In this document: positions 3-425 of the stretch, one piece after another
Layout: each line of letters opens with the position of its first letter
Numbering within the stretch: the first letter of the stretch is position 1
DNA from: Candidatus Sulfopaludibacter sp. SbA3
GTDB lineage: Bacteria; Acidobacteriota; Terriglobia; 20CM-2-55-15
Length of the DNA: 14,977 nt
Assembly: GCA_945861845.1 (NCBI GenBank)
Contig: CAMAWS010000019.1
Location: 1 to 14,977, forward strand
Direction of reading: 5' to 3'
Translations under genes and position numbers: made by a program
Notes under the pieces: generated by a model
What the model was told of the DNA's origin: nothing
The model's input: the letters and a program-made list of their open reading frames with translations, nothing else
Database searches by the model: none

Positions 3-155
3 CAACCTGCAAGTAACGGAATTCACAAATGTTTTCGATCTTTGTCCGGGGCGGGCTATGACAGTTCGACCGGGACGGGAAGTCCGTTCAAATTCAAGGA
101 CGACAATCTGTCACAGGGCTTTGATCGAGGGAGATTCGGTAGTGGGTCACTTTGA
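3..155 (+). pseudogene. Possible 3' end of a reading frame, its tail replaced by the MITE insertion
   Basis: This frame is open from the left edge and has no stop until TGA 153-155, which lies inside the inserted element. If 138-417 and one 8-bp duplication copy are removed in silico, the frame continues through 426 and stops at TAA 456-458, adding the residues FGIANRQLED. The visible protein is hydrophilic and Gly/Ser/Asp-rich (for example GAGYDSSTGTG, then FKFKDDNLSQGFDRG), and I do not recognise a family. A second frame starting at base 1 is also open over the same stretch, so coding is not certain, and a frameshift between the two frames cannot be excluded. The start lies outside the window. 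Confidence 0.3.
130..137. repeat. Left copy of the 8-bp target-site duplication
   Basis: GGAGATTC directly abuts the left terminal inverted repeat of the element at 138-417. An identical copy abuts the right end at 418-425. Confidence 0.75.
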
Positions 156-417
156 AACTTCGCGCATCGCGATCCCTTCTTGGTTTGCAGCACAAAAGCC
201 GTAGCGGCGAAACAGTGTTAGCCACGGGCGTAAGCCCGTGGATTCAGACAGCACGTTATGCCCAGCCCCAACGGGGCGGCACAGCATCCAAGTATCGTGC
301 TATGCCGCACCTACAGTGCTGATGTTCGATCGTTCGGTCGACCACGGGCTGACGCCCGTGGCTATGTTCTTTCGCCGCTCCGCGGCTAGTTACGATATTT
401 CAAAATGACCCACTACC
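138..417. mobile_element. 280-bp MITE-like non-autonomous element
   Basis: The ends are inverted repeats: the left end reads GGTAGTGGGTCACTTTGAAA (138-157) and the right end (398-417), read on the other strand, matches 19 of 20 bases. The element is flanked by exact direct repeats GGAGATTC at 130-137 and 418-425, as expected of an 8-bp target-site duplication. Inside, a second imperfect inverted pair (197-241 with 342-386) and a central pair (about 274-285 with 295-306) let almost the whole element fold back on itself. It encodes no transposase, so movement would need one supplied in trans. The transposase family cannot be assigned with confidence from these ends. Confidence 0.78.
222..361. 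repeat. Pair of opposed REP-like hairpins inside the MITE
   Basis: Bases 222-241 and 342-361 are each a self-complementary unit of the form CCACGGGCN4GCCCGTGG (central bases GTAA and TGAC). They are also inverted copies of one another with one mismatch. Homology of the two arms extends outwards to 197 and 386. Between them lies a short stem, AGCCCCAACGGGGC. Hairpins of this style recur in Acidobacteriota intergenic regions (recollection, not a search result). Another pair of similar design lies at 9486-9571 in this window. Confidence 0.6.
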
Positions 418-425
418 GGAGATTC
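418..425. repeat. Right copy of the 8-bp target-site duplication
   Basis: GGAGATTC directly abuts the right terminal inverted repeat and is identical to the left copy at 130-137. Confidence 0.75.

Follow-up and report, generated by a model that had tools for sequence, protein, structure and literature searches.

Insertion sequences of the IS1 family encode their transposase in two overlapping frames, insA and insB, have ends that start GGTnnTG, and generate target duplications of 8-9 bp. Palindrome-associated MITEs of the IS200/IS605 group (PATEs) carry IS200-type ends without tnpA, and we know of none nested in a DDE shell. REPIN, BIME and REPtron systems (RAYT/TnpA-REP) are treated in two studies (PMC6006769, PMC3733652). 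The main text of Quentin et al. 2018 (PMC6006769), from which the word Rfam is absent, reports acidobacterial class 3 TnpA-Y1 proteins with high-copy atypical flanking structures, about 600 of them in Solibacter usitatus, and Di Nocera et al. 2013 (PMC3733652) describe, in the passage cited here, dimers of repetitive extragenic palindromes (REPs) that lie within long palindromes of Anabaena variabilis and Halothiobacillus neapolitanus. The element analysed here is likely a non-autonomous chimera, an IS1-like shell around a tnpA-less core of IS200 or REP type.

The window, a stretch of 14,977 nucleotides from Candidatus Sulfopaludibacter sp. SbA3, contains a 280-bp MITE at 138-417, the ends of which (138-157 against the reverse complement of 398-417) match at 19 of 20 positions. 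Exact 8-bp repeats, GGAGATTC at 130-137 and 418-425, directly adjoin both ends. The features are as follows.

130..137, no strand: left copy of the 8-bp target duplication, GGAGATTC, read from the sequence
138..417, no strand: whole 280-bp MITE, from nine near full-length genome copies, with boundaries from the target duplications
138..157, plus strand: left terminal inverted repeat, IS1-like, GGTAGTGGGTCACTTTGAAA, 19/20 against the right end
182..200, plus strand: possible remnant of an end of a second MITE family (family B), GGCTTTGCACAAAA, from a weak local alignment
197..241, minus strand: left Acido-Lenti-1-like unit (outer hairpin, TTAG and palindrome), outward-facing, from alignment to sister copies
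265..277, no strand: small inner hairpin GCCCC-AAC-GGGGC, from the sequence, pairs kept among copies
307..319, no strand: small inner hairpin around GCACC-TAC-AGTGC, from the sequence, pairs largely kept among copies
342..387, plus strand: right Acido-Lenti-1 unit, Rfam RF01687, whole model (1-46), outward-facing, 52.3 bits
398..417, minus strand: right terminal inverted repeat, from its match to the left end
418..425, no strand: right copy of the 8-bp target duplication, GGAGATTC, read from the sequence

The single-stranded DNA fold of the 280 bases has an energy of -87.5 kcal/mol, where 200 shuffles give -43.8 +/- 3.8 (z -11.6), and no ORF of 80 aa or longer was found inside the element, in agreement with the snap-back, non-coding interior described in a first-pass annotation of this DNA. 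The same annotation suggested that the element packages REP-like hairpins, and the core does hold a pair of Acido-Lenti-1 units. The right unit (342-387) belongs to RF01687, scoring 52.3 bits against a gathering score of 37 (E 1.5e-9); the left unit is degenerate in the window copy, where its outer hairpin is short of two bases, and it fails the E 0.001 threshold.

The host genome is a draft (3.31 Mb in 496 contigs, 81% complete), and a DNA search of it returned nine near full-length copies at 89-100% identity, here called family A, in which at least 279 of the 296 query bases, shell and core together, align at 89% or better. Further matches in this genome were limited to the interior (query positions 55-262 or less). 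Exact 8-bp duplications flank seven of the nine copies, in seven different sequences, and left and right flanks taken from different copies matched in 0 of 72 pairings; the two misses are copy L008, with 6 of 8 bases, and copy L002, with no match. The 8-bp match at the element's spacing is, taken alone, weaker evidence for a MITE, exact 8-bp matches at an offset of 288 being found at 2 of 14,681 window positions. The joined flanks of copy L007 align with contig C22 at 86% over 275 bp, where a single GAAACCCA marks an empty paralogous site. Open frames of at least 80 codons span 6 of the 9 emptied sites, and a protein near the window element matched 42 loci at identities of up to 67%. Among named relatives of a window protein, the closest is an Acidobacteria MAG, at 67% identity. 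The L007 target is a repeat that is itself an Acido-Lenti-1 unit pair; its outward-facing units (L007 1365-1410 and 1795-1840) enclose the MITE copy at contig C195. The element is thus short, multicopy, bounded by terminal inverted repeats and devoid of a transposase gene, with target duplications at seven of nine copies and one empty paralogous site, and we regard it as a confirmed MITE of a known kind. A chance palindrome, or a decayed repeat with no history of movement as a unit, might be argued from the two copies that have no matching duplication; this is refuted by the seven different exact duplications, the nine copies and the empty paralogue, and its probability is negligible. The complete MITE with 20-bp inverted ends and perfect 8-bp target duplication proposed in the first-pass annotation therefore stands, and the outcome named there as damaging, no other copies and no empty sites, is not what we found. 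The search for copies and empty sites that it called for gave, within the host genome, the other copies and one empty paralogous site; among the best candidates scored in each of 60 relatives (12 or fewer per genome), there was no full-length copy.

The parentage of the shell was sought through its ends. Eighteen bases of the end, at one mismatch or fewer, are present in 27 of 61 genomes (the host included), with few control matches. Four elements in relatives combine similar ends (16 to 19 of 20 positions shared with the left end, 138..157), an exact 8-bp duplication and a related transposase: L123 in G058 (2137 bp), L156 in G001, of the same genus (2448 bp), L157 in G019 (2622 bp) and L121 in G018 (3083 bp). 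A fifth, L120, has ends and duplication and no full transposase ORF, just a match to a 71-residue remnant. The related transposases are single ORFs of 293-309 aa, a layout that does not reproduce the two frames insA and insB. Two of them were scanned: both pass the cut-off of 24.1 bits for PF03400 (DDE_Tnp_IS1), at 24.2 and 34.6 bits, and both fall under the cut-off of 100 for the NCBIfam IS1 equivalog model, at 50.5 and 61.7 bits, so we label the family IS1-like and not IS1. With similar ends, 8-bp duplications and an IS1-like transposase together in four relatives, the window element is therefore a MITE of this IS1-like family. The transposase family, which the earlier annotation called not evident, is named here from full elements in relatives, where the suggested search for the same ends flanking a complete transposase gene was fruitful.

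The shell would be mobilised in trans. The draft host genome gave no match to an IS1-like transposase, and one match was found in G001. A search for end-like sites at three mismatches or fewer gave 34 matches against 5 in the control, and five unpaired sites (on C208, C124, C258, C293 and C325) lie 20-183 bp from the contig end that they face; because of these, we guess that a collapsed multicopy insertion sequence could be hidden at contig ends. The IS1-like elements of relatives also carry other genes: a Fic domain protein in L156 (2538-3704), a BRO-N protein in L157 (451-1425), a DUF4258 protein and an MqsA-family antitoxin-like protein in L121 (538-1642; 57.2 bits against a cut-off of 61.8), and, in the transposase-less L120, a weak DUF3800 match (1387-2382; 19.4 against 21). 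In G027, MITEs of 89 bp (L122 146-234 and 2398-2486, L125 82-170, L115 1430-1518) have IS1-like ends and are flanked by exact 8-bp duplications; their interior is two inverted hairpins of a type different from the Acido-Lenti-1 core.

Across 20 loci of the host genome there are 37 RF01687 matches at E 0.001, and 16 of the 20 hold both units, always with the left on the minus and the right on the plus strand, facing outwards with a spacing of about 145 bp; of the two units in the window copy, only the right one reaches this threshold. Genome-wide counts, which are lower bounds from the best 150 candidates scored per genome, are at least 66 in the host, 97 in G004, 81 in G009, 80 in G015, 79 in G017 and 75 in G016. 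The family is present in 15 of 21 genomes against 0 of 14 control genomes. The foot of the unit is TTAG in the window and GTAG in some relatives.

Some of these units lie beside genes for Y1 transposases. PF01797 matched 58 times in 21 genomes, and among the first 32 of these loci, the surroundings of which were scanned, RF01687 units flank eight in six genomes (L239, L240, L242, L299, L302, L305, L311 and L312), never more than about 400 bp from the Y1 match; 24 of the 32 had none nearby. Three of the 32 Y1 genes have units on both sides. Orientation is away from tnpA in 14 of 15 units, the exception being one of two in L239. Control stretches shifted by 8 kb contained RF01687 in 0 of 20 cases, this control covering the second batch of 20 loci, of which 5 were positive. 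The single Y1 match of the host genome (L247) has no RF01687 nearby. Against the NCBIfam IS200 model, three of four linked proteins pass the cut-off of 55 (55.5, 64.7 and 65.3, the last scanned as a 115-aa piece) and the fourth scores 50.7; against the REP-associated tyrosine transposase model the same four reach 22.3 to 30.6, far under 80. The order around tnpA is outer hairpin, TAG and palindrome, inner hairpin, gene, inner hairpin, palindrome and outer hairpin, and the window core has this order minus the gene. Ends of IS200/IS605 type, with units on both sides of tnpA, thus occur in relatives, while the window itself has no tnpA. On one side of the Y1 gene in L302, three Acido-Lenti-1 units stand in tandem (353-551). 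An exact-palindrome hairpin scan of 12 Y1 loci, with matches at five (L236, L240, L241, L242 and L245), was superseded by the Rfam model.

These observations bear on what Acido-Lenti-1 is. Rfam types it as an sRNA gene, and Table 1 of Weinberg et al. 2010 (PMC2864571) gives it as a probable RNA that is not cis-regulatory, so the core could be a functional small or structured RNA that MITEs merely carry. Its pairing is indeed kept: across 26 cores, 94% of cells pair, and double changes are seen at 11 pairs, where shuffles average 5.7 and 0 of 300 attain 11, with a statistic that ignores relatedness. Single-stranded transposon ends are likewise expected to keep hairpins, however, and both the copy numbers (at least 66 in the host, at least 97 in G004) and the outward inverted pairs adjoining Y1 tnpA genes speak against an RNA, which we consider quite improbable. 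Because the element is best read as an IS1-like shell enclosing an IS200/REP-type core that lacks tnpA, Acido-Lenti-1 is probably transposon-end DNA.

A second MITE family, family B, also carries the core. It is seen at four further core copies in the host genome (L010, L011, L015 and L018), which end in GGCTTTGCACAAAA and, if the boundary is allowed to shift, are flanked by repeats of 9-11 bp. Such ends number 352 in G004, 58 in G003 and 49 in G006, and of 19 stretches in relatives that have them, 8 show an exact 9-bp duplication when the boundary is held fixed; several others match after a boundary shift or with one mismatch, and some never do. The interiors of the relatives' elements differ from the core and are often hairpin-rich; a 108-bp MITE in G004 (L217 103-210) has ends GGCTTTGCACAAAA and an exact 9-bp duplication. 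We take these ends and the 9-bp duplication to resemble those of IS903 (IS5 family). There are six PF01609 matches in G003, G004, G006 and G010. One of these loci, L363, was considered as the source of a family B transposase, with a family B end nearby, and rejected, since the family B MITE there seems to be interrupted by a different element. Among the matches listed for G003, G006 and G010, a search for paired family B ends at the spacing of an insertion sequence gave nothing but one 2.2-kb stretch, which holds two MITEs. In the window, the segment at 182..200 aligns locally with four family B ends at scores that 13 to 85 shuffles in 2000 also attain, which is suggestive only of a family B remnant inside the family A element.

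The sharing of one core by families A and B raises the question of how often it moved. The core's own Y1 transposase may have brought it into an old IS1-like MITE on several occasions, the sharing being repeated insertion: the core has a mobility signature of its own and is also present in family B and in bare copies, and such cargo recurs, given that the IS1-like 89-bp MITEs of G027 hold other inverted hairpins. Against this, the nine family A copies share shell and core (at least 279 of 296 bases at 89% or better) and group together, and we think repeated insertion unlikely. A midpoint-rooted tree was built from 26 cores, 9 from family A and 17 from elsewhere, with partial cores left out. 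In it, family A forms one side of a branch with support 91/95, and a single change accounts for it in 92% of 200 bootstrap trees, although the branch is not strongly supported. The simplest reading, inferred from this one tree, is a single capture of the core followed by spread to at least nine sites.

Under the chimera reading, the mobilising enzyme would be an IS1-like DDE transposase that acts in trans and binds the 20-bp ends, and the 280 bp would, from what is known of the family, insert at an 8-bp staggered cut and so acquire the duplication. The cargo would derive from an element of IS200/IS605 or REP type and be devoid of tnpA, its layout being two outward Acido-Lenti-1 units separated by two small hairpins; it would have entered the IS1-like shell once, and the chimera would then have spread. 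We advance more tentatively, as a possibility, the joint proposal that Acido-Lenti-1 is a Y1 transposon end unit and not an RNA family, and that in these bacteria DDE-type MITEs repeatedly take up gene-less Y1 cores, giving two-layer elements movable by double-strand chemistry through the shell or single-strand chemistry through the core. If true, an Rfam sRNA family of unknown role would be recast as transposon ends, and its matches in genome annotations would be read differently; its role would become directly testable through cleavage by the neighbouring TnpA; and a chimera of DDE shell and Y1-type core would be documented, for which sister copies, one empty site and full-length relatives are available.

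The element resembles several described systems and departs from each. The full relatives of the shell are like the IS1 family in their DDE_Tnp_IS1 domain, 8-bp duplications and ends starting GGTAGTG, and unlike it in their single ORF, sub-cut-off NCBIfam score and extra genes inside. With REPINs, BIMEs and REPtrons, as characterised in the texts cited above, the core shares inverted palindromic unit pairs that are multicopy and face outwards beside Y1 tnpA genes; it differs in that the linked tnpA proteins score 22.3-30.6 against 80 on the REP model, the window foot is TTAG and not GTAG, and the window pair is nested in DDE MITEs. Class 3 TnpA-Y1, as set out in the main text of PMC6006769, likewise has acidobacterial Y1 genes flanked by multicopy structures, and a Y and then a Q motif like that of the ORFs here; the foot there is CnGA, in a comparison by description, and those structures are plausibly the same system as the Acido-Lenti-1 units. 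The Anabaena variabilis and Halothiobacillus neapolitanus dimers, in the account given in PMC3733652, similarly nest a REP pair in a longer inverted repeat, whereas the outer palindrome is not tied there to an IS family. The whole RF01687 model is matched, yet what Rfam classes as an sRNA gene acts here like a mobile repeat, and within the searches made we found no literature link of Acido-Lenti-1 to tnpA or MITEs. What is new against this background is the make-up of the element, an IS1-like shell with a tnpA-less IS200/REP-type core, and its implication for the Rfam family.
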